Program-made: the position numbers and the translations under genes
Part shown: piece by piece, positions 43,782-58,939 of the stretch
Layout of the letters: every line of letters begins with the position of its first letter
Position numbering within the stretch: the first letter of the stretch is position 1
Assembly (NCBI RefSeq): GCF_004014715.1
Contig: NZ_CP034834.1
Span: 1,240,001-1,304,000, forward strand
Direction of reading: 5' to 3'
Length of the DNA stretch: 64,000 nt
DNA from: Pseudoalteromonas sp. R3
GTDB taxonomy: Bacteria; Pseudomonadota; Gammaproteobacteria; Enterobacterales; Alteromonadaceae
The notes under the pieces: generated by a model
What the model was told of the DNA's origin: nothing
Databases searched by the model: none
Seen by the model: the letters and a program-made list of their open reading frames with translations, nothing else

Positions 43782-44384
43782 TTATTCGTCATTGAGTTCA
43801 CTAAGCTGCTGTTCGACGCGCGCCAGCAAAGGTCCAAACCTTTTTTCGGCGGCGCGTTTATTCCAAAAGTAGATCCCCACCATGCCAAGCAGCACAATCA
43901 GGTAATACACTTGCATATGGCTCTCGAGTCGAATTACTCCTTCATCATCCATATTGGCGCCCAGCGTGATCAGCATGACACTGACAAAAATGGGGGCTAT
44001 ATACCACCATACTATGCCCTCCAGGAGTTGTTTTTGCTGAGCCAGCCTTTGCTGTTCCTGAGCCAAATATGCCCGGATGCTGTCATCTTTGCAGGGTGAA
44101 GTTCGTCTGGCTTTAAGCAGTTTATAAGGGATATACAGGCTGGTCAGGATAGCCAGAACACAGCCTGAAGACTGGACCCAGTTTAAGCTGATTGTGAGGC
44201 CGTACAGCCAGACAGGAATAAGCAATAATGAAATGGAGATTTCCATAAAATCGCGCACTTTAATATCTCGCTGATATTTCTTTGTTTTAGTCTTAAGCTC
44301 ATCGATCTGCAATGCCAGTTTCGCTTCTGAGCTGCTGGTTTCAATTTGCTGTGCAAAGTTGTGCTTTAGATCATCCAGTTTCAT
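43782..44384 (-). CDS. Membrane partner of the ECF sigma factor (possible anti-sigma factor)
   Basis: A 200-residue protein with a cytoplasmic N-terminal region of about 45 residues, four hydrophobic segments (about 50-65, 70-88, 123-142, 158-175) and a helical C-terminus. Its start overlaps the sigma factor stop (ATGA), so the two are translationally coupled. Position and topology suggest that it restrains the sigma factor, but no ZAS or RsgI motif is visible, so this role is inferred from context. Confidence 0.6.
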   Translation of the reverse strand: MKLDDLKHNFAQQIETSSSEAKLALQIDELKTKTKKYQRDIKVRDFMEISISLLLIPVWLYGLTISLNWVQSSGCVLAILTSLYIPYKLLKARRTSPCKDDSIRAYLAQEQQRLAQQKQLLEGIVWWYIAPIFVSVMLITLGANMDDEGVIRLESHMQVYYLIVLLGMVGIYFWNKRAAEKRFGPLLARVEQQLSELNDE

Positions 44385-44869
44385 GACTCGTCTCCTACAA
44401 AGTTTTGTTCAAACTCACGTTTAATGCGCTTTATTCGTGAGCGCACTGCGTTGTCACTTATCCCTAATACCTGTGCAATGTCTTCCGATTTCAGGCCATC
44501 CAGATACATCATCAGCACGCCGGCATCGATATCACTGAGCTTATCCATAAACTGATTTAGAATATCGGCCTGACAGCCAGCCTGTTCAGCTTGAGGTTGC
44601 TGTTTGCTGTGCCTCGTAATGGATTGTTTAATGTCATTATGTTTAATTCGGGTTTTAACAAAGGTGTTGGCCGTATTCAGCGCTACCTTATACACCCAGG
44701 TGCCGATGGAGGACTGCCCCGAAAAGCTTTCATAACTGCGCCACAATTGCAGCAGGATCTCCTGATACATATCATCGCGCTCACTGGCTCCGCCATAGCG
44801 CTCAGCTATGTATCGGATCCGCCCGTCGTTGTCAGCGAGCATCTGTTTGAATGAATGTTGTGTGTTCAC
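44381..44869 (-). CDS. ECF-type RNA polymerase sigma factor
   Basis: A 162-residue protein with sigma regions 2 (ASERDDMYQEILLQLWRSYE near residue 30; SSIGTWVYKVALNTA) and 4 (GLKSEDIAQVLGISDNAVRS). Group: sigma-70 extracytoplasmic function family. It is the first gene of a two-gene minus-strand operon and is divergent from nothing close; a 178-base gap separates it from the downstream peptidase gene. The target promoter is not known. Confidence 0.88.
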   Translation of the reverse strand: MNTQHSFKQMLADNDGRIRYIAERYGGASERDDMYQEILLQLWRSYESFSGQSSIGTWVYKVALNTANTFVKTRIKHNDIKQSITRHSKQQPQAEQAGCQADILNQFMDKLSDIDAGVLMMYLDGLKSEDIAQVLGISDNAVRSRIKRIKREFEQNFVGDES

Positions 44870-47380: not shown

Positions 47381-47402
47381 GCCAGCTCTGTGACGAGCTG
47401 GC
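47381..47402 (-). terminator. Terminator of the stress-gene operon
   Basis: GCCAGCTC / GAGCTGGC arms (47381-47388, 47395-47402) around 6 bases, 11 bases after the small lipoprotein stop codon. Confidence 0.6.
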
Positions 47403-47413
47403 ATATCCTGATG

Positions 47414-47605
47414 TTAGCAGTTTTCGTTTTCTGCATTGAGGTTTTCTTTGGCTTTTTCACACAAGTCTTCGGCCTTGTTTTGTACATCTGTGATGGTCTC
47501 GTCAACGCGCTCGCCCGCGTCTTCTGCCGGGCCGTCAGAACAGCCAGCCAGGCCCAAAACAGTGATAAATAAAGTGGCTTGTAGTGCAGTAATCATGTTG
47601 TTCAT
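47414..47605 (-). CDS. Small lipoprotein
   Basis: A 63-residue protein; start at 47605 because AAGGAGCACATT precedes it. Lipobox VLGLAGC (Cys22), then a Glu/Asp/Lys-rich helix (DETITDVQNKAEDLCEKAKE). This is the design of small stress-induced envelope lipoproteins (entericidin- and YtxH-like), though the exact family is not clear. Last gene of the stress cluster. Confidence 0.7.
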   Translation of the reverse strand: MNNMITALQATLFITVLGLAGCSDGPAEDAGERVDETITDVQNKAEDLCEKAKENLNAENENC

Positions 47606-47647
47606 AATGTGCTCCTTAATCAATTCAATGAGGTTACTTGTGGCTTA

Positions 47648-47818
47648 CTATGCGTTTGGCTTTTTAATCACAGGCAGCACAAACGACAGCAAAACCAGGG
47701 CAATAAAAACAAAGAACAATATCTGTGCAATGCCTGCTGCGGCACCGGCGATACCACTAAAACCCAGAATGGCACTGATCAGTGCAAGTACTAAAAATCC
47801 GAGTGACCAACGTAACAT
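47648..47818 (-). CDS. DUF1328 small membrane protein (YtjA-like)
   Basis: A 56-residue, two-helix membrane protein: [20 protein letters not shown], then a second hydrophobic helix with a [11 protein letters not shown] linker. This matches the DUF1328/YtjA family of small inner membrane proteins often induced by stress. The start at 47818 is set by AGGAGGTTCAC; the longer ORF upstream is out of character. Lies between the PA2169-type and lipoprotein genes. Confidence 0.85.
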
Positions 47819-47845
47819 GTGAACCTCCTGTTTGTGTGTAATCAG

Positions 47846-47860
47846 GCAGGGCCTGTGCCC
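47846..47860 (-). promoter_or_regulatory. Possible sigma-54 promoter upstream of DUF1328 (or terminator hairpin)
   Basis: On the minus strand GGGCACA-GGCC-CTGC has GG and GC at exact -24/-12 spacing. The same bases also form a perfect palindrome (GCAGGGC / GCCCTGC), so a terminator after the PA2169-type gene is an equal explanation. Confidence 0.35.
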
Positions 47861-47889
47861 TGCGTTATCAAAGGTGCGACCGTGACGCC

Positions 47890-48336
47890 CTAAGCAGTCA
47901 GCTCCTGCAGCGTTTTCATTTCGTTGTGACATGCTTGCATGCGAACCTGAACCTGCCTTAAGTCCTGAACACACTGAGGCGGCAATTGTTGCTCTAACGC
48001 ATCGGCCACTTTTTCCAGCACCTTATCCTCTACTTCTTCCAGCTGCGAGATGTAGGTGTGTGTTTTGTCAGTACTCAATACACCCAGCACCTTAGTGTAA
48101 TGCTCACGCAGCGTGACCAGCATGTCAGAGTCAGTTTCGCGCTCGCCTTCGTCAATCAGCGCGTAGGTTTGCAATTTCGAAATTGCCTGAACCTTTTCCG
48201 TGATCATTTTGTTGAAAATGGCACTGATATGCTCGTCGTCCACTTTTTCTTTGGCATCTTTGTAAAATTCAACACCACCATTAAGCACCTTTACTAACTC
48301 CTTTAAAGGTTCCATATCGTAGTTTGAATGTGTCAT
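47890..48336 (-). CDS. PA2169/DUF2383-type four-helix bundle protein
   Basis: A 148-residue, all-helical cytoplasmic protein of the ferritin-like PA2169 family (DUF2383). It opens with [20 protein letters not shown] and has the expected spacing of Glu/His-containing helices. Family proteins appear in envelope- and general-stress clusters; their exact role is not established. ATG after AAGGAGTTTAAC. Candidate -24/-12 promoter lies 51 bases upstream. Confidence 0.85.
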
Positions 48337-48386
48337 AGTTAAACTCCTTACTTGATTGCTTAAGTTTGTTTGTTACTTTAACTAAT

Positions 48387-48401
48387 GCATGGCCTATACC
48401 A
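48387..48401 (-). promoter_or_regulatory. Candidate sigma-54 (-24/-12) promoter upstream of the PA2169-type gene
   Basis: Minus strand reads TGGTATAGGCCATGCAT, with -24 GG (48400-48399) and -12 GC (48388-48387) at exact spacing and a TGCAT downstream element. Only the GG and the TGCAT part match the consensus, so this is weaker than the pair flanking the BON gene. Confidence 0.45.
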
Positions 48402-48488
48402 GTTTTAAATTTGATTAATATCAATGCGTTGTGGGTTTTAAAGTAAACGGGCGATGCAAGCTTTACCTTGTGTCTGTAACTTTTACGC

Positions 48489-49433
48489 TTAACTACTGTG
48501 TACTTCTTTCTCACCTTGCTGTTTGTGTGTTCGCTGGCGCATGTTGATTTGCATGTCCTCCAGATTAGCACCGCCTTTGGCATTAAAATCCAGCGTACGT
48601 ATAGGAAAGGGAATAAGAATATCGTTTTCTTCCAGGGTTCTGTGGATTGCAATAATGGCTTTGTGGCGCATCTGCATAAAGCCAATCTCACCGGGATAGT
48701 CAATCCAGAACCACACCAGCAGATTGACAGAGCTGTCGCCAAACCCACAGGCATACACATCCGTTTCGTGTTGTTTTATTACGCCATCCAGAGCATTTAT
48801 TGCGTCCACAATGACAGATTCGGCCTGCTCAATGTCATCGGCATAGGAGATCCCCACCTCAATTTCTATCCGACGAGTGGCCAGACGCGAGTAATTGATC
48901 AGCTCGTTTTTAAACAGGATCTTGTTAGGTACTATGGCCAGCTGGCCATAAAAGTTCTCTATTAAGGTATTGCGCAGGTTAACCCGACGGACCGTGCCGA
49001 AGGTGTCACCGGCTTCCACGACATCGCCAACCCTAAAGGGTTTACGGATGCCCATTACGACCCCGGCAATCATATTTTCGGTCATATCCTGAAAGGCAAA
49101 ACCGATTGCCAGGCCGATGATGCCGGCCCCGGCAAGTAACGAAGCTACCGCTTTTGACAGCCCCATAATATCCAGCGCGAAGAAAAAGCCGATTGCAACC
49201 AGGATCATGCGGCAGATCCCCGCAATCAGTCCGGCAATCTGGTTTGACTCAAATAAGCGTTTCAGCAAAGTCAGTAGCCAGCGTGCAAGGAGTTTAGACA
49301 GGAACACAAACACAATAAAAATGAGTGTTGCAATGACCAGGTTGGGTAAATTCTTAATCGTCAGTTCGGCCCAGTGCACGAGCTTTTCATTGATGAGCGA
49401 CCAGAAGTCTTGTGGGGTAAATGTAAATGACAT
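48489..49433 (-). CDS. mscS: Small-conductance mechanosensitive channel (MscS family)
   Basis: A 314-residue inner membrane protein. Start at 49433 after AAAGGAGGCG. Three membrane helices precede the MscS pore helix and signature (SLLAGAGIIGLAIGFAFQDM, then GVVMGIRKPFRVGDVV), with a beta domain and C-terminal region after. It opens to release solutes during hypo-osmotic shock. First gene of the stress cluster; its promoter region is divergent from the BON gene. Confidence 0.92.
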   Translation of the reverse strand: MSFTFTPQDFWSLINEKLVHWAELTIKNLPNLVIATLIFIVFVFLSKLLARWLLTLLKRLFESNQIAGLIAGICRMILVAIGFFFALDIMGLSKAVASLLAGAGIIGLAIGFAFQDMTENMIAGVVMGIRKPFRVGDVVEAGDTFGTVRRVNLRNTLIENFYGQLAIVPNKILFKNELINYSRLATRRIEIEVGISYADDIEQAESVIVDAINALDGVIKQHETDVYACGFGDSSVNLLVWFWIDYPGEIGFMQMRHKAIIAIHRTLEENDILIPFPIRTLDFNAKGGANLEDMQINMRQRTHKQQGEKEVHSS

Positions 49434-49465
49434 AACGCCTCCTTTATATGTATCTGGTGATAGCA

Positions 49466-49480
49466 GCAGGGAGCGTGCCA
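49466..49480 (-). promoter_or_regulatory. Sigma-54 promoter for the mscS cluster
   Basis: Minus strand reads TGGCACG-CTCC-CTGC. It matches the sigma-54 consensus TGGCACG-N4-TTGC at all positions but one, with the exact spacing between GG and GC. The -12 element lies 33 bases before the mscS start codon, which suits a short leader. No overlapping strong sigma-70 promoter was noticed. Confidence 0.75.
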
Positions 49481-49565
49481 TTGGACTATATATTTAATTT
49501 CAATGGGTTAGTAAAAAGTGTGATGGTCTGTGTAGAATTTTCCAGTAAATAGTTCCACACCGGTA

Positions 49566-49578
49566 TGTAAAATATACA
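49566..49578. promoter_or_regulatory. Possible activator (enhancer) site
   Basis: TGTA-AAATA-TACA is a dyad of the TGT-N(7)-ACA type used by NtrC-like activators. It lies between the two divergent -24/-12 promoters, about 55 bases from one and 87 bases from the other. Low information content; offered as a candidate only. Confidence 0.3.
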
Positions 49579-49631
49579 GGCAAAAGGCTGGGGAATTATC
49601 TAACCATATGATTTTAAATGGCTAAATCGGT

Positions 49632-49646
49632 TGGCACGTAAGCTGC
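49632..49646 (+). promoter_or_regulatory. Sigma-54 promoter for the double-BON gene
   Basis: Plus strand reads TGGCACG-TAAG-CTGC followed by A. It differs from the sigma-54 consensus TGGCACG-N4-TTGC at one base and has exact GG-to-GC spacing. The start codon is 38 bases downstream of the -12 element. Confidence 0.78.
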
Positions 49647-49683
49647 ACCTGTCAAAGTGAACTCATCCACAAGGAGAATGATT

Positions 49684-50244
49684 ATGAAACGCACAATTCT
49701 AACACTTGCTTTTGCTACGGCTTTTTCAACTTCTGCGGTTAATGCTGCTGACAATCAGTGGGAAAAAGAGGCCAGCGACGCCTGGATAGACGGTAAAGCT
49801 GAAGCCACTTTGTTATTCAATGGCAACCTGAATTCGTTCGACATCAACACAGATGTGAAAAACGGCGTGGTGGTCCTTACAGGTAAAGTAGACCACAGCG
49901 TTGATAAAAAACTGGCAACTGAGCTGTTGATCGGTATCGACGGTGTGAAAGAAGTAGACAACCGTTTAACGGTAGTACCAGAGGTACAGGATAAAGACGA
50001 CGACGGCAATGCCGAGTCTGACTTTGTTGATGCCAAAATCGCGACAGTCATTAAAACCCGTCTGCTGTTTGATACTGACATCAGCGGTACCGACATCGAC
50101 GTTGATGTCGACAATCAAACCGTCACGCTTACCGGTGAAGTCGAGTCAGACGCCGAGAAGCAGCTGGTGGTAAATATTGCGACCAATGCAGACGATGTGA
50201 AACGCGTTAACAACAAGCTGACCGTTATTGATGAACGCTCATAG
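49684..50244 (+). CDS. Periplasmic protein with two BON domains (OsmY-like)
   Basis: A 186-residue protein; the start at 49684 follows AAGGAG with good spacing. Signal peptide ends near SAVNAA (residue 22). Two BON domains (about 40-100 and 120-186), each with the family's 'VxNGVVxLTGxV' and 'GVKEVDNRLTVV/DVKRVNNKLTVI' cores, are separated by an acidic linker (VQDKDDDGNAESD). OsmY-like proteins stabilise periplasm and membranes during osmotic or envelope stress. Divergent from mscS; terminator follows. Confidence 0.88.
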   Translation: MKRTILTLAFATAFSTSAVNAADNQWEKEASDAWIDGKAEATLLFNGNLNSFDINTDVKNGVVVLTGKVDHSVDKKLATELLIGIDGVKEVDNRLTVVPEVQDKDDDGNAESDFVDAKIATVIKTRLLFDTDISGTDIDVDVDNQTVTLTGEVESDAEKQLVVNIATNADDVKRVNNKLTVIDERS

Positions 50245-50271
50245 AGCAACACAGTTACTCCGTTGACTTTT

Positions 50272-50295
50272 AGGCACGCTTAGCGTGCCTTTTTT
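50272..50295 (+). terminator. Intrinsic terminator after the BON gene
   Basis: AGGCACGC / GCGTGCCT (50272-50279, 50283-50290) around TTA, then T5. The T tract overlaps the end of the convergent hybrid kinase gene at 50294. Confidence 0.85.
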
Positions 50296-52243
50296 ATGCG
50301 TTGTGTACAATGGCTGCCAGGTCGGGAAGTGAAACGGGTTTTAGTAACACCTGGCTGACCGGGTAAGAGAGCAGGGCGTCTGGGTCGGGTTCACTGCCAC
50401 TAACCACCACCAGCTTAGCTGAGCTTTGGCGCTTATGAACAGCCTCAACCAGCGCCAGTCCGGAGCCATCGGGTAAATTTAAATCTAGCATTACCACATT
50501 AAAGTCAGCGTGTTTGTCCAGCTCGCTCAGGCCCTCAGCGCAGCTGCCGGCAGCAACGACTTCACACTCTAATGACTCCAGCAAGAGCTTCATTAAGTTG
50601 CGCGCATCCGGGTCGTCTTCAACTAGTAAAATCCGCTTGCTCTTGGCGTTTGGATCGCCGTGCTGTGAGGTGAGCATGTTTTGTGCAGGCTGGGCGGATA
50701 AATAATCCTTTAAGCAGGATTCAAGCCGAGTAAGGTTAATGGGTTTGGTCAGGGTATCGTTAAAGCCGAGGGCTTTAAGGGTGTCCAGATTACTTTTCTG
50801 AGCTGCGGCGGTTAGTGAGATAATGGGTGTACTAATACCCTGAGCGCGCAGTTTAACAATGGCGTCTTTGCCGTTTAATACTGGCATGTGTAAGTCCATG
50901 AACACCAGGTCAAAGTCCGCATCAGCGTGAGTGAGTAAATCACAGGCAACTTTGCCATTTTCCGCATAGCTGACGTTGGCACCGGTGGCTGTAATGAGTT
51001 GCCCCAGCAACTGGCGAATTTCGGGCAAATCTTCAACGATGAGTACCTTGCCGGATAAATCGGTTACCCTGGCCGAAGGTCGGTTCACAGTGGTACCGAG
51101 CAGATCTAGCTGGCCAAGTTGTCCGGAACATCGGCCCGGCTCGATGGTAAAGCTGAAGGTACTGCCGCTGCCCACGCTTGATTCAACCTGTAAACTCCCA
51201 CCAAGCAGGCGGATCAGGGCTGAGCTGATGGCCAGTCCAAGGCCGGCGCCTTCCTCAGAGCGCGTGGTACTGTCCTGCACCTGCTCAAAGGGCTTAAAAA
51301 TATGTGCCAATTTATCCTGAGGAATACCAATGCCGGTATCTTCAATCGCAAAACAGAGTTTGCCTTCAGCTGCTGGCCGTACCTCAATTGAAACTTGCCC
51401 ACTTGGCGTGAATTTTATGGCGTTGTAAACCAGGTTTATTAACACCTGCTTCAGCCGTTTTTCATCGGACTCGATATAGGCGGGTAAGGGCGCGTCGGTG
51501 TGAATTGCAAACTGAATGCTCTTTTTATCCGCAGCCATGGAAAACAGGCTGTGCAGATCGGCAAGCAATGAGGCCAGGCAGATCTCGCTGGGCTCAACTT
51601 GCAGGCTGTTGGCGTTGATTTTCGACAAATCCAGTACGTCATTAAGCAGATTTAGCAAATGCTGGCTGTTATTGTGAATGATAGACAGCTCTGGTTTGAT
51701 ATTGTCCAGCTCGCTGCGGGTCAGTAACAGATCGGTATAGCCCATGATAGAGGTCAGGGGAGTGCGCAACTCATGACTCAGGTGCGCCAGAAAGCGGTCC
51801 TTGGCGCGGCTGGTGGCCTGTGCCCGCAGCCGCTCCAGGCGCTCACTTTCAAGCTCCCGACGGGACAGAGCATAGCGGATCGCGCGGATAAAGCGTGGGC
51901 TGCTGATCTCAGATTTAAGCAAGAAATCTTGCGCACCCAGTGCTAAGGCGTCGGCGTCCAATACCTCGTCGGCCTGACCTGTGAGCATCATAAATGAGGT
52001 ATTGATGGGCAGCGCTTTGGCGGCTTCAAGAATGGTCAGGCCGGTATGTTTGCCAAGCTGATGGTCGAGCAGGCAAAGATCGAATTGATCAGACTCAAGT
52101 GCCTGAAGCACTTCATCGAATTCACTGAGCCAGGTGACTTCAAACTGATAGTTTGGTATTTGCTGTAAGTAATCCAGTGCCAGTATATAGTCGTCTTCAT
52201 CATCCTCTACCAGCAGTAGCTTGACCACCTGCGCATGTTGCAT
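50294..52243 (-). CDS. Hybrid histidine kinase with three receiver domains (REC-HK-REC-REC)
   Basis: A 649-residue soluble protein. Domains in order: receiver about 6-125 (LCLLDHQLGKHTG), HisKA near 155-215 (LAHLSHELRTPLTSIMGYTD), HATPase about 260-370 (DTGIGIPQDKLA; GAGLGLAIS), receiver about 398-515 (LVFMDLHMPVLNGKD), receiver about 535-645 (VVMLDLNLPDGSGLAL). No membrane segment or sensor, so it works in the cytosol, receiving phosphoryl groups through its first receiver. Last gene of the operon; an AGGAGGG site is 9 bases from the preceding REC gene. Confidence 0.9.
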   Translation of the reverse strand: MQHAQVVKLLLVEDDEDDYILALDYLQQIPNYQFEVTWLSEFDEVLQALESDQFDLCLLDHQLGKHTGLTILEAAKALPINTSFMMLTGQADEVLDADALALGAQDFLLKSEISSPRFIRAIRYALSRRELESERLERLRAQATSRAKDRFLAHLSHELRTPLTSIMGYTDLLLTRSELDNIKPELSIIHNNSQHLLNLLNDVLDLSKINANSLQVEPSEICLASLLADLHSLFSMAADKKSIQFAIHTDAPLPAYIESDEKRLKQVLINLVYNAIKFTPSGQVSIEVRPAAEGKLCFAIEDTGIGIPQDKLAHIFKPFEQVQDSTTRSEEGAGLGLAISSALIRLLGGSLQVESSVGSGSTFSFTIEPGRCSGQLGQLDLLGTTVNRPSARVTDLSGKVLIVEDLPEIRQLLGQLITATGANVSYAENGKVACDLLTHADADFDLVFMDLHMPVLNGKDAIVKLRAQGISTPIISLTAAAQKSNLDTLKALGFNDTLTKPINLTRLESCLKDYLSAQPAQNMLTSQHGDPNAKSKRILLVEDDPDARNLMKLLLESLECEVVAAGSCAEGLSELDKHADFNVVMLDLNLPDGSGLALVEAVHKRQSSAKLVVVSGSEPDPDALLSYPVSQVLLKPVSLPDLAAIVHNA

Positions 52244-52252
52244 CTTTCCCTC

Positions 52253-52699
52253 CTAAGGTAATTCGACGATTTCGATCCAATACTTGCCCAGCTGACGCAT
52301 CAGCTCCACCAGGCCATCAAAGTTCACGGGTTTGGAGATGTACGACGCGGCGCCAAGGTCATATCCTCTGAGTTTGTCTTCTTCTTCCTTAGAGGTAGTG
52401 AGGATCACCACCGGAATTGAGCGCAGCGTTGGGTCGCTCTTAATTTTGTGCAGCGCCTCACGGCCATCCATGCGTGGCATGTTCAAATCCAGCAGGATAA
52501 TACTGGGCCGGGGGTGTTTGGTTTTGTCTTCGAACGGCGGCTCATTGTTAAGATACGCCAGCAGCTCAACACCATCTTGCACAAAGTTCAGGTTGTTTAA
52601 CACCCGGCTTTCCTGCAGGGCGTCCTGAGTCAGCAAACGATCATCTTCATCGTCGTCTGCCATCAAAATATTAATGCGTCTGGTTGATAAGCTGCTCAT
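52253..52699 (-). CDS. Single-domain response regulator (REC)
   Basis: A 148-residue CheY-like protein with the acidic pair near the start (ILMADDDEDDR), the phospho-acceptor aspartate in IILLDLNMPRMDGREAL (about residue 68) and the conserved lysine near YISKPVNFDG. The start lies inside the end of the kinase gene upstream (29-base overlap), after an AAGGA site in the kinase coding sequence. No output domain, so it probably shuttles phosphate within the relay. Confidence 0.9.
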   Translation of the reverse strand: MSSLSTRRINILMADDDEDDRLLTQDALQESRVLNNLNFVQDGVELLAYLNNEPPFEDKTKHPRPSIILLDLNMPRMDGREALHKIKSDPTLRSIPVVILTTSKEEEDKLRGYDLGAASYISKPVNFDGLVELMRQLGKYWIEIVELP

Positions 52700-54194
52700 C
52701 GGCGGTGTCCTTTAATGTGAGAGTGGAAGCAAGGTCGGGTATCAGGATCCGAAAAGTGGTGCCCTGGCCTTCAATACTGTGTGCGCTGATCTGTCCGCCA
52801 TGGCGCTCAACAATGCGACGGCACACGGCAAGACCAATGCCTGTCCCTTCATAAGATTTGCGGGTATGCAGGCGCTGAAACGGCGTAAAAATTTTCTCAT
52901 TGTATTCGGCGGCAAAGCCAATACCATTGTCGGTGATGTCAATTTCCAGCCAGTCACACTCAATGTCTTCAAGTAACTTGCTGGGAGCGGCGGTTTTGCT
53001 CATGGTAATGACAATTTGTGGCGGCACGCCTTCGCGGCGGAATTTAATGGCGTTAGATAACAAGTTTAAAAACAACTGGTGAAGCTGTATTGGGTCGCCT
53101 TCAATGGTCGGTAATGGGTCAACCTGAATGCGGGCATTGGCGTCGCTGATGGTTATCTCCAGGTCATCCAGCACAGTCTCTATGAGTGGATTAAGTGCGA
53201 CGTCTTCGAAATCCTTTCCTTTGGTCGTCACTCTGGATAAGGAGAGCAGATCGGTGATTAGTACCGACATCCGCTTGGCTGCGTTGTCCATTCTGGACAG
53301 GTAATCTTTACCTTTGTCATCCAGCAGCGCTTCGTAATTGGCCTTGATGCGATCAGAAAACGCGCGAATTTTTCGAAGTGGCTCCTGTAAGTCATGAGAA
53401 GCGATAAACGCAAAGTCTTCGAGCTCGCGATTGCTGCGGGTCAGTTCATCCGCGTAAAGCTCCAGTGCCTGAGTACGCTCTTTTACTTTGTCTTCGAGTT
53501 GCTCATTGTAGCGTTCCAGCTGCTCTTTTGAGCGACGCACACTGTGCAGGTGCTTAATTAAAAACACCAAAAACAGGGTGCTGATCAGGGTGCTTAATAC
53601 TGTGAACCAGATCAGGTTGTCTTTTGCGGTTTCCCGTGCCTGCGTCAGGCGCGCCATCAGCAGATTTCTGATCTCGGTTTCTTCTGCCATGATGGTGGCG
53701 TACAGGGTGCGTAAGTCAATCCCGGTACTTCGCACATCGTCCAGCATCCTGTGTGGTTCAAGCTGCTCATTGTCCCTAGCCTGCGCTACACTAGCAGACA
53801 GTGATTCAAATTTAATCTGAGCATGCTGAATGTAACGTTCCAGGCGCCGCTGCTGAGGGGGGCTTTCCGAACGGATCGTCTGAGCCTTGCTCAGGCTATG
53901 TTCAAATTTTTTCAGTGCAATCTGATAAGGAGCCAGATCGCTTTCGCGCTGGGAAATGAGATAACCTCGTTGTCCGGATTCGGCATTCAGAATGTCAATG
54001 TGCAGCTGATCGACCCTAAGCATGACTTCGCCGGTATTTTGCAAACTTTGTTGAATTCGGGCGATTTCGTCGGTGTTTCTTAATCCCAAAGAGGCCACTA
54101 ATATAACTCCAGCCAGGATCAGCAGCGGGATTAGCCACACCATATTCTGCATACGGCGGGAGTAATTAAATGCGCGCACTGTAGCTCCCGTCAA
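52671..54194 (-). CDS. CHASE3-domain membrane histidine kinase
   Basis: A 507-residue kinase. Helices at about 18-36 and 195-214 flank a periplasmic CHASE3-type sensor containing the typical LNAESGQRGYLISQRES segment. HisKA has His267 in FAFIASHDLQEPLRKIRAFS and the HATPase has DNGIGFAAEYNEKIFTPFQR and GTGIGLAVCRR. Overlaps the preceding mini-HisKA gene by 4 bases (ATGA) and the downstream REC gene by 29, so the three are tightly coupled. The signal sensed is unknown. Confidence 0.9.
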   Translation of the reverse strand: MTGATVRAFNYSRRMQNMVWLIPLLILAGVILVASLGLRNTDEIARIQQSLQNTGEVMLRVDQLHIDILNAESGQRGYLISQRESDLAPYQIALKKFEHSLSKAQTIRSESPPQQRRLERYIQHAQIKFESLSASVAQARDNEQLEPHRMLDDVRSTGIDLRTLYATIMAEETEIRNLLMARLTQARETAKDNLIWFTVLSTLISTLFLVFLIKHLHSVRRSKEQLERYNEQLEDKVKERTQALELYADELTRSNRELEDFAFIASHDLQEPLRKIRAFSDRIKANYEALLDDKGKDYLSRMDNAAKRMSVLITDLLSLSRVTTKGKDFEDVALNPLIETVLDDLEITISDANARIQVDPLPTIEGDPIQLHQLFLNLLSNAIKFRREGVPPQIVITMSKTAAPSKLLEDIECDWLEIDITDNGIGFAAEYNEKIFTPFQRLHTRKSYEGTGIGLAVCRRIVERHGGQISAHSIEGQGTTFRILIPDLASTLTLKDTADEQLINQTH

Positions 54195-54391
54195 TCTTGC
54201 GTCATCAAGGTTTGGAGCAATTCGCTACACGCCTTGCTGGCTTTAATGATATCGTCGGCTGATTGCTGAATCTCAGCTTCTGAACCTGGCTTCTGGCTTA
54301 GGATCTTAATCAATTCTGCGTGCATAGAAATATGGTTGAGTGGCTTTCTGGCATCATGAATGAGCGTTGCTATATCAGGCTTGTCTGTCAT
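54191..54391 (-). CDS. 66-residue stand-alone HisKA (H-box) protein
   Basis: A 66-residue, all-helical protein. It contains LIHDARKPLNHISMHAEL, an H-box like those in HisKA domains (H-x-x-R-x-P-L-x-x-I) with candidate phospho-acceptor His12, followed by a second helix (EAEIQQSADDIIKASKACSE) as in a helical hairpin. There is no ATPase domain, so it cannot phosphorylate itself. GAGGGGG site before the ATG; it begins 14 bases after the NtrC-type gene and overlaps the kinase gene by 4 bases. Probably a phosphotransfer module or dimerisation modulator of the relay. Confidence 0.75.
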   Translation of the reverse strand: MTDKPDIATLIHDARKPLNHISMHAELIKILSQKPGSEAEIQQSADDIIKASKACSELLQTLMTQD

Positions 54392-54405
54392 CTTTCCCCC
54401 TCGCT

Positions 54406-55791
54406 TTACTTTGTTTCTTCAGGTGTTGATTGCTCATACGCATTCAGGCGGTTGTACAGTGTTTTAGTGCTGATCCCCAGCATTTTTGCGGCCAGAGTTT
54501 TATTGCCATCGACCGACTCCAGAGTCTGGTAAATCAGTTTTCGCTCGACCTCTTCAATGGTTTCTCCGACTTTAACCGGCGCGGACAGGGTTGTGGCAGA
54601 TGTGGCTGGTGCCTGAGATGGAGCTTGAACGTCAGGCTCCTGAGCACTCGCGAATGGTGAGCTGACAATCTCATCTATCATCAGTGTGGTTGTATCGGGA
54701 TCTGCCATAATAAATGCGCGATGAATACAGTGTTTCAGCTCTCGAATATTGCCTGGCCAGCTGTGTGCAGCCAGTACAGCATGAGCCTGCTCGGTGAGTT
54801 GATATTGTGTTTTGTATTCTTCATTGAGCTGGTGGACAAAAAACTCACTCAGCAGCGGTATATCCTGAGGACGTGCCCGCAGCGGTGGGATTTCAATGGG
54901 GAAGACGGCAAGGCGAAAATAAATGTCTTCGCGCAGTACGTTTTTTTGCGCGATTTCGGCCAGCGTCCGGTTGGTGGCAGATACCACACGACAATTGACC
55001 TCTATGGGCTTAGCCCCTCCCACCCGGGTAATGGTTTGCGTTTCCAGTGCCCTGAGCAGGTTAGGCTGCATTTCAATGGGCATTTCTGTGACTTCATCCA
55101 GGAATAATGTGCCATTTTGTGCCAGCTCAAATACGCCTTTCTTTTGGTTGATTGCGCCGGTAAAGGCGCCTTTTTCATGACCAAATAATTCGCTGCCGAT
55201 CAGATCTTTGGCAATCGCGCCACAGTTCACAGATACTTGATCACCGCTGCACTGGCTGGCATTGTGGATGGCCTTAGCAACGACTTCTTTACCTGACCCA
55301 CTTTCTCCCATTAACAATACGTTGGCATTGGTTTTAGCGACCCGATCTATCATAGTAACCAGCTTTTTCATGGCGGGCGAGTGGCCGATCAAGCAGCCAA
55401 AATGACGCTCAAAGGGATCGGTTTGGGTATGATGAGTGGCGGACTTTTTGTTTAATACGCGCTTCACGTCATCGGCTTCAATGGGCTTGGTCAGGTAATT
55501 GATTTGCTCGTCGCACATGCTGGCCAGTGCTGCTTTGACCGAAGGGTGGCCTGTTATCAGGGTAATTTGTGCTGATAATTTAAGGCTACGTATGTGATCT
55601 ATGAGATGTAAGCCACTGCCATCGGGGAGCATAAAGTCGAGGAACAGGTGGTCAAAGCGCATATCAGTAAGCCACTGTTTTGCTTCGTCAATACTGCCTG
55701 CGGTGTATACATCACAGCCTATAAATTCAATGATCCGAGCGGCGATAGTCGTAAATTCATGGTCATCATCAACCAGCAGAACGGTCTTCAT
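54406..55791 (-). CDS. NtrC-type sigma-54-dependent response regulator
   Basis: A 461-residue regulator. Receiver about 4-115 (FLDFMLPDGSG), AAA+ sigma-54 interaction domain about 130-355 with Walker A GESGSGKE and the GAFTGA loop (EKGAFTGAINQ), and a Fis-type helix-turn-helix at the C-terminus (NKTLAAKMLGISTKTLYNRL). The GAFTGA loop shows that it can activate sigma-54 RNA polymerase. Sigma-54-type promoters lie about 5-6 kb away in front of the BON and mscS genes. Located 12 bases after the phosphatase/lipid kinase gene. Confidence 0.93.
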   Translation of the reverse strand: MKTVLLVDDDHEFTTIAARIIEFIGCDVYTAGSIDEAKQWLTDMRFDHLFLDFMLPDGSGLHLIDHIRSLKLSAQITLITGHPSVKAALASMCDEQINYLTKPIEADDVKRVLNKKSATHHTQTDPFERHFGCLIGHSPAMKKLVTMIDRVAKTNANVLLMGESGSGKEVVAKAIHNASQCSGDQVSVNCGAIAKDLIGSELFGHEKGAFTGAINQKKGVFELAQNGTLFLDEVTEMPIEMQPNLLRALETQTITRVGGAKPIEVNCRVVSATNRTLAEIAQKNVLREDIYFRLAVFPIEIPPLRARPQDIPLLSEFFVHQLNEEYKTQYQLTEQAHAVLAAHSWPGNIRELKHCIHRAFIMADPDTTTLMIDEIVSSPFASAQEPDVQAPSQAPATSATTLSAPVKVGETIEEVERKLIYQTLESVDGNKTLAAKMLGISTKTLYNRLNAYEQSTPEETK

Positions 55792-55803
55792 TCGGGATCC
55801 TTG

Positions 55804-57438
55804 TTAGTTTGAATGTGTCGACTCTGAAGCCATGATCCACAAGGAAGCCTGATTCACTTCAATGTTAAGGCTGTCGGCACTTTTTACTTCACCATCAATA
55901 CTATACTGTATTTGCTCTGAGTCTGCGTGTAAAGTGACTTGCTTGCAGTGGGCGTGTGAAACGGCACTTTCCTGTGCTGCTTTACCAGATACGCCGGTGG
56001 CGATTAGCTGTGCCACACTCAGCGCACGAGATGCAGACTCTGGCTCATGACGGATCAGCGTTAGATCCAGCAAGCCATCCTGATAATCTGGTTCACCACC
56101 TCCTTGCGCCAGCACTGTGGTTATGGGAGCTGCGTTGGCGACCACCAGACTGGCAATATCCAAGCTTTGTTCTGGCTGATTATCTGTGCGCAATGTTACG
56201 TGTTGTTTATGTCCATCAGAGAGTGCATTGATAAAGCCACTGATGTAGGCCAGCTGGCCACTGCGATTTTTTTCGCTGCGATTGGCGTGCTCAATCATTT
56301 GTGCCTCAAATCCAAAGGCGGCAACCAACAGGCCCGTCTCGCCGTTGCAGGTCATGGTATCTATTTGTATGTGATGTTCACTCAAAAGCACGTCACAGGC
56401 ACTGCTGACAGGATCAACTTTACTGCGTATCCCCAGCAGTACGTGTGCCAGCGCATTGGCTGTGCCAAGCGGAATAAAGCCCAATTTACATTCACTGTTT
56501 ACCAGCGCATGAGCAACGGCGGTCAGCGTACCATCACCGCCACAGGCAATCAGGCGCTCTGTGTCTTGACTTAGCTTAGCGGCCAGCGCTGCAACGTCTG
56601 TGTCCTGTTCGGTAAAGTGCAGAACAAGCGTATACTGGCTGCACAGCAGGCCAATCACCTGGTTGTCGTATAAGTGCCACTTTCCGCCACCCGAAACAGG
56701 GTTGATGATTATCGGCAGGCGTACGCTTGGGGCTTCATGCACGCGATGCATGAGCGAGCTAAGACGGCGGTGTTGGTAACGATTTAAGCGCGCTGTCTGG
56801 CGTTTGCCATTGATAAATTGCATGGCATCATCCACGGATAAGGATGGGTCCTGCAGCATCAGGTAAGCAGCAACGACAAATACTGAGCGGCCACGTCCCA
56901 GCGCACAATGGACGACTACTTTCTTGTTGAGCTGATGCATCACGGTAATCCAGTTCAGCGCATGTCGCAATTGGGTTTCACTGGGAGTTTGATGGTCCAA
57001 AATGGGTATATTCAGGTAGTACAAGCCTTGCTCTTCGGCAGACCAGTTCAGGCCGTCGAATTCGGCAGTAACATCCAGTATTGCTTCAACTTGTTTGGAT
57101 TGCAGCATGGGGATATCACTGGGAAACAAACGACAGGCTAAAAACAAGTTGTCTTTCACTTCTTGTACCGGTGGCACACTGTCCTGGTATCGTTGCCAGG
57201 CATTATAGAGCTGCGCCCCTATAAAATAGGGTAGCAGCAATACTTTGATATAAAATGGTACTTGCCCCGTGGTGCGTTTACGGAACAGTTCTGGTCTGTC
57301 TAGCGCATAAGCTACGTAGACGCAGGCAATAGACGCACTGAGCCAGATAGATGGCAAAAGCATCAAGTTGTTCAGGTTCAATATGATTAGTGGCAGGGTA
57401 AACAGCAGTAAAACAAGATAGTAGTGCGCTGTGCTCAT
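55804..57438 (-). CDS. Membrane fusion of dual-specificity phosphatase and diacylglycerol-kinase-type enzyme
   Basis: A 544-residue protein; start at 57438 after TTAGGAG. Two N-terminal membrane helices (about 7-45) and a third near 60-80 precede a dual-specificity phosphatase domain (about 90-225) with the catalytic loop VHCALGRGRSV (HCxxGxxRS), then a DAGK/sphingosine-kinase-type domain (about 245-540) with INPVSGGG and CGGDGT. The phosphatase may act on proteins or lipids, and the kinase domain phosphorylates a lipid such as diacylglycerol. First gene of the phosphorelay operon. Confidence 0.88.
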   Translation of the reverse strand: MSTAHYYLVLLLFTLPLIILNLNNLMLLPSIWLSASIACVYVAYALDRPELFRKRTTGQVPFYIKVLLLPYFIGAQLYNAWQRYQDSVPPVQEVKDNLFLACRLFPSDIPMLQSKQVEAILDVTAEFDGLNWSAEEQGLYYLNIPILDHQTPSETQLRHALNWITVMHQLNKKVVVHCALGRGRSVFVVAAYLMLQDPSLSVDDAMQFINGKRQTARLNRYQHRRLSSLMHRVHEAPSVRLPIIINPVSGGGKWHLYDNQVIGLLCSQYTLVLHFTEQDTDVAALAAKLSQDTERLIACGGDGTLTAVAHALVNSECKLGFIPLGTANALAHVLLGIRSKVDPVSSACDVLLSEHHIQIDTMTCNGETGLLVAAFGFEAQMIEHANRSEKNRSGQLAYISGFINALSDGHKQHVTLRTDNQPEQSLDIASLVVANAAPITTVLAQGGGEPDYQDGLLDLTLIRHEPESASRALSVAQLIATGVSGKAAQESAVSHAHCKQVTLHADSEQIQYSIDGEVKSADSLNIEVNQASLWIMASESTHSN

Positions 57439-57611
57439 GAATACTCCTAATGTGAGAGACTGATAGACACTATTCAATTTTCATTCCGCTTTGCAGGCCC
57501 TTAAAACAGCGTCTCCAGACTTCAGCGTAGGAGGGTTTTACAGAGTATGTAAAATTTACCGGCCTGATTATGAATTAATTGCTTGATTCTGATCATTAAG
57601 AACAGGGCAAT

Positions 57612-58484
57612 TTAGTTGGTGAAATATTCATGAAGAAAATCAAGCATAGTGCGCAATCTCGTTGGCATAAACTCGGTATGCTTATAGAGCGCGTACATCG
57701 GCAGTGTATGACCTTGCCTGTCTTCAAATAATTTAATGAGCGTGCCTTCTGCCAGGTGTGTATCAACCATCCAGCTCGGCATGGCTGCAACGCCTAACCC
57801 TGAAAGGGCTAATTTAACAATCATTTCCGGACTGTCAGATCTGATATATTCATTAACAGTGTAGTGTTTGTTATCTAACTGCCAGATATTAGAGGGATTA
57901 CTGAGAGCATAGGTGATGCATCGATGGGTTAAAAGTGATTCGGGGGTAGATGGCGTGCCATTCAGCTTTAGATATTGAGGCGCTGCGAAGTAGCAAGCAT
58001 CGTGGTCCAGCAACTTCTTTGCCTTAAGCCCCGAGTCTTTTAGCGCTGAAGCCCGGATTGCAATGTCTACGTCCTCATTTATCAGGTCTACATGCTGATC
58101 GCTTACACTTACATCCAGAGTCACTTTAGGGTAGCGGTGCATAAACTCACAAAGCGGATCTGCCAGACGCTGCGTTGCGAAAGCACTGGGTGCAGAGATT
58201 TTAATATGGCCACTGATCTGTGTTTGTTCATCACGGATCTGGTGCTCTATTTCGCTCATAGTGTCGAGCAGCGATTGGCTGTATTTAAGGTATGTCTTTC
58301 CTGATGTGGTTAGTGCAATAGCGCGAGATGTTCTGTGAAACAGGGTAAAGCCAAGGTGCTGCTCAAGCCAGGCAATTTTTTTGCTTACCGCACTTTGAGT
58401 CATATTGAGCGCATTTGCTGTGTGGGTAAAGCTTCCTCTTTTAGCCACTTCAGTAAATAGCCTAATACAGGTCAGTTTGTCCAT
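57612..58484 (-). CDS. LysR-family transcriptional regulator
   Basis: A 290-residue regulator (MDKLTCIRLF start). N-terminal winged helix-turn-helix (GSFTHTANALNMTQSAVSKKIAW), then a substrate-binding domain of the LysR type. The ATG at 58484 is chosen because GGA lies 7 bases upstream; one at 58490 is possible. Divergent from the DoxX-like gene, separated by about 100 bases that hold a palindrome. Confidence 0.9.
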   Translation of the reverse strand: MDKLTCIRLFTEVAKRGSFTHTANALNMTQSAVSKKIAWLEQHLGFTLFHRTSRAIALTTSGKTYLKYSQSLLDTMSEIEHQIRDEQTQISGHIKISAPSAFATQRLADPLCEFMHRYPKVTLDVSVSDQHVDLINEDVDIAIRASALKDSGLKAKKLLDHDACYFAAPQYLKLNGTPSTPESLLTHRCITYALSNPSNIWQLDNKHYTVNEYIRSDSPEMIVKLALSGLGVAAMPSWMVDTHLAEGTLIKLFEDRQGHTLPMYALYKHTEFMPTRLRTMLDFLHEYFTN

Positions 58485-58488
58485 GGTC

Positions 58489-58503
58489 ATTCCATTTTGG
58501 AAT
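58489..58503. promoter_or_regulatory. Candidate LysR operator
   Basis: ATTCC-ATTTT-GGAAT is a perfect dyad with a 5-base spacer that fits the T-N11-A type LysR box. It overlaps the start of the LysR gene in the divergent region to the DoxX-like gene. A half copy TTGGAAT occurs near 58540. Confidence 0.45.
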
Positions 58504-58585
58504 ACATTCTAGGTAAACAATACTATTCATTGAGTTTAATTGGAATGCTTTAATGCTCCTCCTTAGCCCTATTAGGAGGATATTG

Positions 58586-58939
58586 ATGGTTATAATTGCT
58601 ACTTTGCTGGCTGTTTTCTTTACTCTGGCTGGCTCTCAAAAGATTTTTGCCTGGAGCGCTGGTGTGTTCAAAATACAAAGTGAATTTTTCAGGCGATACG
58701 GGCTTGGCAGAAGGCACATGTATGGGATCGGTATCATTGAATCGGCCGCTGCCGGATTGCTAGCCTTTGCTATAATCGCTGAACAAGAAAAAGCTTTGCA
58801 GCTTGGCTCGGTCCTAATACTACTGACCTCTGTTGGTGCATGTTACTTCCACTTCAAATATGACACATTCAAAGACGCCATTGCTGCGATACTAACCGGG
58901 TGCGGTTCAGTTTCCCTGCTCGTTTGTGGGTTACTGTAG
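58586..58939 (+). CDS. DoxX-like membrane protein
   Basis: A 117-residue protein with four membrane helices; start at 58586 after TTAGGAGGA. The N-terminal motif LAVFFTLAGSQKIFAW and the C-terminal FHFKYDTFKDA are those of small DoxX-like proteins, whose roles include quinone or thiosulfate related redox functions in some family members but are usually unknown. Divergently placed from a LysR regulator that probably controls it. Confidence 0.8.
   Translation: MVIIATLLAVFFTLAGSQKIFAWSAGVFKIQSEFFRRYGLGRRHMYGIGIIESAAAGLLAFAIIAEQEKALQLGSVLILLTSVGACYFHFKYDTFKDAIAAILTGCGSVSLLVCGLL

Follow-up and report, generated by a model that had tools for sequence, protein, structure and literature searches.

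The window, a stretch of 64,000 nucleotides from Pseudoalteromonas sp. R3, carries at 50294-57438, on the minus strand, a six-gene operon that is adjoined by a set of putative stress effector genes (Table 1). Profile searches recovered every domain that a preliminary description had assigned to the operon, each in its place. The effector block named there (BON, MscS, PA2169-type, DUF1328 and lipoprotein) is also present; four of its members were identified by profile search, and no Pfam family was found for the 64-residue lipoprotein. The lipoprotein gene adjoins DUF1328 in the sampled genomes, linked and unlinked alike.

Table 1. Features of the operon, the effector genes and their putative control sites (positions in the window).
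Feature	Position	Strand	Basis
Small acidic lipoprotein, 64 aa	47414..47608	-	lipobox LAGC read from sequence
DUF1328 small membrane protein, YtjA-like	47648..47818	-	profile searches
Doubtful -24/-12 candidate before DUF1328	47845..47861	-	PWM 10.1
PA2169-family/DUF2383 four-helix protein	47890..48336	-	profile searches
DUF2383 -24/-12 promoter CTGGTATAGGCCATGCA	48386..48402	-	pattern + PWM
Two enhancer-like sites before DUF2383	48474-48489, 48454-48469	-	79 and 59 bp upstream of -24 element
MscS-type mechanosensitive channel	48489..49433	-	profile searches
MscS -24/-12 promoter ATGGCACGCTCCCTGCT	49465..49481	-	pattern + PWM
Three enhancer-like sites between divergent MscS and BON promoters	49530-49545, 49543-49558, 49565-49580	.	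motif scan
BON -24/-12 promoter TTGGCACGTAAGCTGCA	49631..49647	+	pattern + PWM
Double-BON protein, OsmY-like	49684..50244	+	profile searches
Terminator-like inverted repeat then T run, between convergent BON and operon ends	50273..50289	.	read from sequence
Hybrid kinase REC-HisKA-HATPase-REC-REC	50294..52243	-	profile search
Single-domain receiver protein	52253..52699	-	REC
CHASE3 sensor histidine kinase	52671..54194	-	CHASE3 + HisKA + HATPase
Stand-alone DHp (HisKA) protein without ATPase domain, 66 aa (mini-DHp)	54191..54391	-	weak HisKA match
NtrC-type sigma-54 activator	54406..55791	-	REC + AAA+ Sigma54_activat (GAFTGA) + HTH_8 Fis-type HTH
Dual-specificity phosphatase + diacylglycerol/lipid kinase fusion, PRK12361 family, first gene of operon	55804..57438	-	DSPc + DAGK; PRK12361 E 6e-194
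Enhancer-like sites before operon	57528..57562	-	motif scan

The residues expected to act in signalling are strongly conserved. Sites for a His-Asp-His-Asp chain are all present: the kinase His (43/43 homologues, as is its ASHDLQEPL motif), the Asp of the single-domain receiver (43/43), the mini-DHp His (45/45) and the Asp of the activator's receiver (45/45). The hybrid kinase keeps its His in 44/44 homologues and the Asp of its three receivers in 42/44, 44/44 and 43/44, and the HCALGRGRS (phosphatase) and GGDGT (kinase) residues of the first protein are invariant in 15/15. The activator has the make-up of a sigma-54 enhancer-binding protein (bEBP), with a phospho-Asp receiver, a Fis-type HTH and an AAA+ sigma-54 interaction domain bearing the GAFTGA loop; its Walker-A Lys is kept in 45/45 homologues and each GAFTGA letter in 43-45 of 45. 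NtrC, ZraR, AtoC and FlbD were rejected as its named equivalog, since the activator scored below the NCBIfam cut-off for the best 25 of 85 families (top score 336 bits, against 750).

The mini-DHp protein matches HisKA with E 7.7e-5 and 23.1 bits, under the Pfam gathering score of 26.9. Thirteen columns, H12, D13, R15, L18 and N19 among them, are invariant across 16 homologues. Its predicted structure is a two-helix hairpin (pLDDT 89.5), for which the best Foldseek match is an HK853 complex (TM 0.74, probability 0.99, but E 0.65). The helical hairpin and H box that define a HisKA/DHp domain are thus both found, on a sub-gathering match and a predicted structure. We propose that this protein is the His phosphotransferase of a relay; if so, few His phosphotransferases would be as small as this bare hairpin of 66 residues. 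Assignment to the Spo0B/ChpT type was rejected, as the protein ends after the hairpin and has no C-terminal kinase-like domain.

The promoter pattern TGGYAYRNNNNHTGCW matches 31 times in the 5.82-Mb genome, against 22 matches for a reversed control pattern. BON, MscS and DUF2383 are each preceded by one of the 31, and these three cluster in 1.3 kb (Poisson P 5e-8 for one given 1.3-kb stretch, ~2e-4 after multiplication by the number of bins). Relatives carry -24/-12 elements in the same places: within the genus an element (PWM >= 9) precedes 20/20 BON, 15/17 MscS and 17/19 DUF2383 genes sampled. Outside the genus it precedes only 1/5 MscS genes, and at some loci of other genera MscS is placed after the phosphatase/lipid-kinase gene. 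Promoters had been suggested before three or four effectors; the first three stand, whereas that of DUF1328 is not conserved: its score drops from 10.1 to 5.7 in G033, a close relative, and none of the nine DUF1328 genes examined from other linked genomes reaches the threshold. DUF1328 and the lipoprotein gene are therefore probably transcribed from the DUF2383 promoter in linked genomes. Altogether, 62 of 75 effector genes sampled from 18 of 108 genus genomes have an element, against 5/337 control ORFs; of the 13 without one, nine are DUF1328 copies from linked genomes.

A palindromic enhancer motif, CnGTAAAnnTTTACnG, was found de novo in the genus (LLR 107, against 34-47 in three shuffled controls). 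It reaches 7 bits in 38/62 promoter stretches and 15/62 control stretches within the genus; in held-out genera it does so at 44-110 bp in 11/16 promoters and in 0/16 equal stretches farther up. Its distances are phased at 11.3 bp, in helical register, and this period, chosen on the genus and then applied to the held-out genera, gave R 0.67 there (p ~3e-4). Among 30 pattern-match loci of the R3 genome, only BON, MscS and DUF2383 have two sites of >= 5 bits at 55-95 bp, the first two sites between MscS and BON overlapping. Predicted enhancer sites upstream of -24/-12 promoters, as bEBP control entails, are accordingly present. They are clear at dispersed BON and DUF1328 genes, weak at dispersed DUF2383 and weak or absent at dispersed MscS. 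No good -24/-12 element was found upstream of the operon in the window; in relatives its first gene has a candidate in G024 (10.1) and G066 (10.7), the other seven sampled copies scoring < 9.

Among 108 Pseudoalteromonas genomes, an activator orthologue occurs in 69, DUF2383 in 69, DUF1328 in 69, MscS in 67 and a strong BON match in 70. Activator and DUF2383 are both present in 68 genomes and both absent from 38, with one exception in each direction. Yet 47 of the 69 genomes with the activator have no BON or DUF2383 gene within ~20 kb of it on the same contig, and the dispersed effectors sampled in the genus retain -24/-12 elements. A gyrB tree covering 70 of the 108 genomes shows 11 changes in the presence of the activator, and over 11 independent pairs DUF2383 moves with it in 9.9, BON in 10.9 and MscS in 9.8 (averages). 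Most co-losses on the tree occur in clades with linked genes, so that a single deletion could take out all of them; G005 is the clear loss from a clade in which the genes are dispersed. The sole genus exception, G097, keeps all four effectors with -24/-12 elements, lacks the core and carries a second type of activator.

In the wider family the mini-DHp occurs in 17 other genera, with the full core in 15. In the family loci opened, the five-gene core is kept in 18/20 and an effector homologue lies nearby in 16/20; one natural variant, L264, consists of the activator, the mini-DHp and a single CHASE3-HK-REC-REC protein. Of 248 control ORFs in family loci, 17 reach the promoter threshold, seven of these with the enhancer motif; some may be further regulon members and some chance matches. 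DUF1328 promoters score >= 9 in 19/20 genes from mini-DHp-bearing family genomes. However, 84 of 274 family genomes without mini-DHp still have DUF1328, and 10/20 DUF1328 genes from such genomes still carry the element, so that a -24/-12 promoter is no proof of the operon's activator. Of the 19 core-lacking family genomes examined, 11 carry a related activator whose receiver is degenerate, usually next to the same effectors. The proposal that operon and effectors form one system is therefore well supported in the genus, where they are gained and lost together though mostly unlinked. Independence of the two blocks in most genomes, which the preliminary description named as grounds for refutation, is not what the genus shows; the wider family departs from this in part.

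The best explanation, which we regard as likely, is that the operon is a phosphorelay with a sigma-54 enhancer-binding protein as output and the effector set as regulon. For the predicted regulon by itself, the sequence support is good. It would comprise BON, MscS and DUF2383-DUF1328-lipoprotein, to which DUF883/ElaB-like and hemerythrin-HHE genes are probably added in relatives. The CHASE3 kinase would autophosphorylate and charge the single-domain receiver, the conserved His of the mini-DHp would take over the phosphoryl group, and from there the group would pass to the Asp in the activator's receiver. We infer the stimulus, the binding of the activator to CnGTAAAnnTTTACnG sites ~55-105 bp upstream, which its KTLYNRL recognition helix would mediate, and the transcription of the effectors. 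Sigma-54 transcription requires an ATP-driven activator, and this one would remodel sigma-54 polymerase at the -24/-12 promoters. The REC-HK-REC-REC protein may be a second input or a phosphate sink.

Most probably the system is the sigma-54 equivalent of a general/envelope stress response, with effector sets such as those under RpoS, AlgU and EcfG elsewhere. CHASE3 kinases belong to the membrane-bound sensors, and the envelope is where MscS and BON proteins act. The effector families and papers on their relatives make the envelope-stress reading plausible: inhibition of lipoprotein transport raises osmY, ytjA and elaB in E. coli and PA2169 in Pseudomonas aeruginosa, according to PMC5105897 and PMC7685553. 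A general stress response (stationary-phase, osmotic or cold), rather than one to envelope stress, suits the data equally, and we give it a nearly even chance. Both osmY (PMC5105897) and ytjA, a DUF1328 gene (PMC5437024), are listed under sigma-S, and a PA2169-family gene of P. haloplanktis TAC125 is reported among the five most down-regulated at 15 versus 0 degrees C (log2FC -4.33; PMC10134870).

Within the proposed phosphorelay, we consider the order CHASE3 kinase, receiver, mini-DHp, activator to be about evenly balanced. Alternatively, the CHASE3 kinase might phosphorylate the activator directly, with the mini-DHp as kinase inhibitor or dimer partner, or as phosphatase; the mini-DHp gene sits between those of activator and kinase, its product has no ATPase domain, and small HisKA-like modulators are conceivable. 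Thr or Asn at His+4 is typical of HisKA phosphatases, whereas this position is Lys or Ala in the 16 aligned mini-DHp sequences. The H-box His, Asp, Arg, Leu and Asn are kept in 45/45, beyond the need of a mere binding scaffold, and the receiver has stayed a gene of its own, like that of the Pak-SdrG-PhyT-PhyR relay (PMC5898713). Direct transfer is a substantial possibility, at appreciably less than an even chance.

It is unlikely that the effectors are a true sigma-54 regulon under another bEBP, such as the degenerate-receiver type, while the operon does something else. G097 fits such an arrangement, with effectors and promoters, no core and the second activator present, and among family genomes without mini-DHp the element precedes 9/12 DUF1328 genes where the second activator is encoded and 1/8 where neither is (a post hoc comparison, p 0.02). 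Against it, the genus effectors track the operon's activator through 11 changes, and one other bEBP match opened in the R3 genome and one in G028 proved not to be of the second type. Moreover, a KTLYN(R/K)L helix is common to both activators, which makes them look like alternatives on the same sites. That a shared genomic island explains the co-occurrence, with promoters due to chance, is very improbable: BON or DUF2383 lies within ~20 kb of the activator in 22/69 genomes, where one deletion could clear all, but the unlinked effectors sampled have promoters, control ORFs rarely do, and motif and phasing were reproduced in held-out genera.

No described system with this gene set was found in an open-access library that leaves out most subscription journals, in agreement with the preliminary description. 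The REC-AAA+-Fis layout, enhancer sites and -24/-12 promoters recall the NtrC, ZraR, AtoC and FlbD two-component systems, but the relay components and regulon differ. The phage shock response also places envelope-protective genes under sigma-54; PspF, however, has no receiver, whereas the activator here has one. Identity with phage shock was rejected at this locus, where no PspA-like family was found among the operon and effector proteins scanned. The Spo0F-Spo0B-Spo0A phosphorelay likewise combines a stand-alone receiver with a DHp-type His phosphotransferase that feeds a transcription factor, but Spo0B has a kinase-like C-terminal domain and the mini-DHp is the hairpin alone. ChpT acts similarly and resembles histidine kinases (PMC3433190), while the mini-DHp stops after the hairpin. 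No kinship of sequence with either is apparent.

RpoS and AlgU are sigma-70-family sigma factors, in contrast to the -24/-12 promoters and enhancer sites found here. Their regulons nevertheless draw on the same families: besides OsmY and YtjA in enterics, ElaB is placed under RpoS (PMC6389858), and AlgU of Pseudomonadaceae controls a BON protein and a hemerythrin-HHE protein (PMC10651043). The alphaproteobacterial general stress response (GSR; Pak-SdrG-PhyT-PhyR-EcfG, and PhyK/MrrA in Caulobacter) has the succession of kinase, single-domain receiver, His phosphotransferase and regulator that is proposed here (PMC5898713, PMC5964349), and EcfG targets in Sphingopyxis include an mscS gene (PMC7083833). 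There, however, the output is PhyR/EcfG, and none of PhyR, NepR and EcfG was found in profile searches of the six operon proteins. In contrast to the proposed 66-residue hairpin, PhyT sits in the membrane (PMC5898713), and PhyK, which resembles histidine kinases, works as a phosphotransferase (PMC5964349).

Members of one small and poorly understood stress set (OsmY-like BON, YtjA/DUF1328, PA2169/DUF2383, ElaB-like, hemerythrin and MscS) answer to RpoS in enterics, to AlgU in Pseudomonadaceae and to EcfG in alphaproteobacteria. If true, a sigma-54 version would show an effector module conserved while its master regulator was swapped. The enhancer motif and signal chain that it defines, together with a natural activator pair, can be tested in tractable marine bacteria, and the regulon offers a way to learn what DUF1328 and DUF2383 do. 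Taken jointly, an Alteromonadaceae sigma-54 general/envelope stress response with RpoS/AlgU/EcfG-type effectors, a minimal four-step relay and two interchangeable activators is a tentative reading, to which we give somewhat less than even weight. The second activator type is found in two further families of the order and may be older than the phosphorelay type, in which case a regulon already in place would have acquired the phosphorelay later. It is encoded opposite a DUF2383-like gene, the product of which might be its sensor or antagonist.

The gene content proposed for this locus, a six-gene operon beside BON, MscS, DUF2383 (PA2169 family), DUF1328 and small lipoprotein genes, proved to be right. 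At its 3' end the operon closes with a terminator-like repeat, opposite the end of BON; immediately past it follow BON on the plus strand and then MscS, DUF2383, DUF1328 and the small lipoprotein gene, all on the minus strand. Enhancer-like sites are present upstream of the operon, which may thus be subject to sigma-54 autoregulation. Among nine copies, only those of genomes G024 and G066 have a -24/-12 element scoring above 9 before the phosphatase/lipid-kinase gene; in other genera, -24/-12 candidates precede the activator gene at loci L257, L271 and L273.

Judged from sequence, the operon and the effectors would indeed form one system, as the preliminary description had suggested. The names of matching proteins place the window in Pseudoalteromonas. 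An orthologue of the activator (E <= 1e-120) is present in 69 of the 108 Pseudoalteromonas genomes, DUF2383 and DUF1328 each in 69/108, MscS (E <= 1e-50) in 67/108 and a strong BON match in 70/108; the activator and DUF2383 occur together in 68 genomes and are both absent from 38. Genome G072 carries the activator but lacks both DUF2383 and DUF1328, and its contig breaks inside MscS; G097 has the effectors only, without the core activator. By match positions, the activator has BON or DUF2383 within ~20 kb in 22 of the 69 genomes and neither of them in 47, among them G120, in which DUF1328 adjoins the activator locus. A gyrB tree was built for 70 of the 108 genomes, namely the 39 lacking the activator and 31 of the 69 that have it; on this tree, activator presence requires 11 changes. 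MscS was coded as absent from G092, G121 and G131, which have the activator. Across 11 independent pairs, DUF2383, BON and MscS changed in the same direction as the activator in 9.9, 10.9 and 9.8 pairs on average, and in the opposite direction in none (sign test p 0.001-0.004). In most of these pairs the close relatives carry the genes linked, and a single deletion might then account for their common disappearance; genome G005 is the clear instance of loss from a clade with dispersed genes.

Features at the locus (positions in the window unless a locus is named) and genes seen beside second-activator loci
Feature	Location	Strand	Remarks
Operon	57438-50294	minus	tight: neighbouring genes overlap or lie 9-14 bp apart
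LysR-type regulator divergent from DoxX-like gene	57612-58939		upstream of operon
Rejected -24/-12 candidate	47845-47861		before DUF1328; GC-rich near-palindrome mimicking a -24/-12 element
ECF-type sigma factor gene	44381-44869		
Membrane-protein-like gene	43782-44384		follows the sigma factor gene; no Pfam match; possible anti-sigma factor
DUF883/ElaB-like gene, then YqjE-like gene	L034, 4030-5037		
DUF1328 beside second activator	G440, G480, G152, G374, G310		by eye
BON beside second activator	G151; in G440 slightly farther out		by eye
Phosphatase/lipid-kinase fusion beside second activator	G366		by eye
Hemerythrin beside second activator	G274		Pfam
DUF883-like gene beside second activator	G284, G310		by eye

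The -24/-12 candidates reported earlier before three or four of the effectors were retained for BON, MscS and DUF2383; the fourth, before DUF1328, was rejected for lack of conservation among the linked relatives that were compared. This near-palindrome may reflect RNA structure in the DUF2383-DUF1328 spacer. A strict -24/-12 pattern has 31 matches in the 5.82-Mb genome of the strain and 22 for the reversed control; three of the 31 fall inside 1.3 kb, upstream of BON, MscS and DUF2383, and this single pattern may overlook regulon members whose elements are weaker. We then scored 18 of the 108 genus genomes (17 with the operon's core, plus G097) with a weight matrix (threshold 9, <=110 bp from the start), the scores of which are relative since it approximates published promoter compilations. 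An element precedes 20/20 BON genes, 15/17 MscS genes (the other two score 8.9 and 8.3) and 17/19 DUF2383 genes, with one other at 8.8 and that of G120 having none within 110 bp and one of 9.7 at -154; among control ORFs, 5/337 have one. For DUF1328 the count is 10/19. All nine genes lacking the element are in genomes whose effectors lie close to the core, and most of them come immediately after DUF2383; the ten bearing it comprise eight dispersed genes, one adjoining the core (G120) and the doubtful candidate of the window. The distance from element to start is similar for genes near or far from the operon (BON ~-53). Some genomes have two BON copies, each with its own element (loci L149-L150 of G066, L147 of G125); G066 also has two copies each of DUF2383 and DUF1328.

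A palindrome, CnGTAAAnnTTTACnG, emerged from a de novo search of 47 stretches upstream of the elements, with an LLR of 107 compared with 34-47 for three shuffled sets. The motif was trained on 47 of 65 genus promoter regions scoring above 8 bits, the family promoters alone being held out. In these held-out promoters of other genera, a site of >=7 bits lies at 44-110 bp in 11/16 cases versus 0/16 equal stretches further up; the corresponding counts for genus promoters are 38/62 and 15/62. Sites are frequently paired, 21-22 bp or ~13 bp apart. Measured upstream from the -24 element, the wider pairs lie at 91 and 69 bp for dispersed BON and DUF1328 genes and at 79 and 58 bp for linked DUF2383 genes; the ~13-bp spacing is that of MscS and BON in the window, whose intergenic sites occupy 49530-49580; sites are weak before dispersed DUF2383 and weak or absent before dispersed MscS. 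Site distances in the genus have an 11.3-bp period, for which the held-out promoters yield R 0.67 (Rayleigh p ~3e-4; 2/20,000 uniform draws equally phased), p values that are optimistic because sites shared by divergent promoters and overlapping palindrome registers inflate the number of distances. Among 30 own-genome pattern matches examined, a pair of sites of at least 5 bits at 55-95 bp is confined to the three matches in this locus.

A profile of the mini-DHp, the 66-aa HisKA protein of the operon, matched 543 proteins in a large protein collection, the best 7991 candidates being scored; Aliiglaciecola and Paraglaciecola are among the 120 matches listed. Within the Alteromonadaceae, it is found in 121/395 genomes and 18/52 genera, including Pseudoalteromonas. 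In 20 loci opened from the 17 other genera, activator identity is 54-73%, the full five-gene core is present in 18 (15/17 genera), and at least one homologue of BON, MscS, DUF2383 or DUF1328 lies within the 15-18-kb stretch in 16. Locus L264 combines the activator and mini-DHp with one CHASE3-HisKA-HATPase-REC-REC protein, and L267 has only activator and mini-DHp, beside BON. The -24/-12 element precedes BON in 5/6 cases, DUF1328 in 8/10, DUF2383 in 2/2 and MscS in 1/5; it also precedes 17/248 control ORFs, seven of which have the motif as well, and some of these look like further regulon members. At L259, L268 and L275, a hemerythrin-HHE-like gene (by Pfam at L259) with element and enhancer sites directly follows the hybrid kinase. 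DUF883/ElaB-like genes with both features, their Pfam match weak or absent, occur at L270 of another genus and at L035 and L147 of the genus; they are possible additional regulon members.

DUF1328 is present in 119/121 family genomes with the mini-DHp and in 84/274 without it. When its upstream regions were compared between 20 mini-DHp genomes and 20 genes from 19 genomes lacking the mini-DHp, the element was found in 19/20 and 10/20, respectively. The latter count speaks against a simple one-activator reading, and the 19 genomes and G097 were therefore searched with the activator. The search returned no core activator in any of them; a related activator (46-50% identity, matching from residues 101-130 to 453-458) was found in 11 of the 19 and in G097. 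This second activator was unexpected. In its degenerate receiver region the phospho-Asp is replaced by Gln or Glu in 11/12 (Asp in L328), the switch Lys is lost in 11/12 (retained in L325), and Pfam detected no receiver in the three scanned. The recognition helix, KTLYNKL, is close to the KTLYNRL of the window's activator, unlike those of two other activators compared. At 9 of the 12 loci an effector-family gene is seen in the 1.5-kb flanks; none was seen there in G241, G180 and G097, the divergent gene aside. That gene, of 146-171 aa, is divergent from the activator at 12/12 loci, and in the four scanned DUF2383 was above the Pfam cut-off in two (including G097), weak in one and absent in one. 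In G040 and G049, from other families of the order, the second activator is accompanied by BON, a DUF1328-like gene, -24/-12 elements and enhancer sites at ~70-92 bp. The second-activator loci are L317-L328 and L339-L342. Counted by gene, the DUF1328 element is present in 28/32 cases with either activator versus 1/8 with neither (G270), a post hoc split of the family genomes made after the 19/20 and 10/20 result had been seen. The presence of this second type would account for the effectors of G097 and may mean that the regulon predates the phosphorelay. Two sigma-54 activator matches, in the strain's own genome and in G028, were rejected as second-type activators: their receiver is intact and a kinase-like gene adjoins (by eye).

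The phospho-sites of the operon's proteins are kept nearly throughout: the CHASE3-kinase His in 43/43, the receiver Asp in 43/43, the mini-DHp His in 45/45, the activator Asp in 45/45, and in the hybrid kinase the His in 44/44 and the three Asps in 42/44, 44/44 and 43/44. The mini-DHp is confidently predicted as a two-helix hairpin (pLDDT 89.5) and has no ATPase domain. Phosphoryl groups would pass from the CHASE3 kinase to the receiver, the mini-DHp and then the activator. Most simply, the mini-DHp would act as a phosphotransferase, since its gene has stayed separate and stands next to that of a single-domain receiver; direct phosphorylation of the activator by the kinase, with a modulatory mini-DHp, is a possible if somewhat doubtful alternative. 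The variant at L264 retains the parts required by a phosphotransferase relay. Among solved structures, the mini-DHp profile matched a single entry, which carries no meaning, and the best of 369 Foldseek matches, HK853 (E 0.65), is no proof of kinship because a two-helix hairpin is too generic.

The layout is like that of the Spo0F-Spo0B-Spo0A relay. Similar layouts are described for Pak-SdrG-PhyT-PhyR (PMC5898713) and MrrA-PhyK-PhyR (PMC5964349). The output protein and phosphotransferase architecture of all three differ from those of the window's system, which is therefore not a member of these relays; we found no description of it in an open-access library. According to the respective papers, relatives of the effectors and of genes seen with them are controlled by sigma-S (osmY, PMC5105897; ytjA, PMC5437024; ElaB, PMC6389858), AlgU (a BON protein and hemerythrin, PMC10651043) and EcfG (mscS, PMC7083833). 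When lipoprotein transport is inhibited, E. coli is described as raising osmY, ytjA and elaB (PMC5105897), and P. aeruginosa as raising PA2169 (PMC7685553), for which no AlgU dependence was noted there. These responses favour the word envelope in the name first given to the system, an envelope-stress phosphorelay; envelope stress would be a plausible type of stimulus. In P. haloplanktis TAC125, a PA2169-family gene, PSHA_RS08940, ranks among the five most down-regulated at 15 versus 0 degrees C (PMC10134870); we infer that it is the orthologue of the window's DUF2383 gene, as the family is nearly always single-copy in genomes of the genus.
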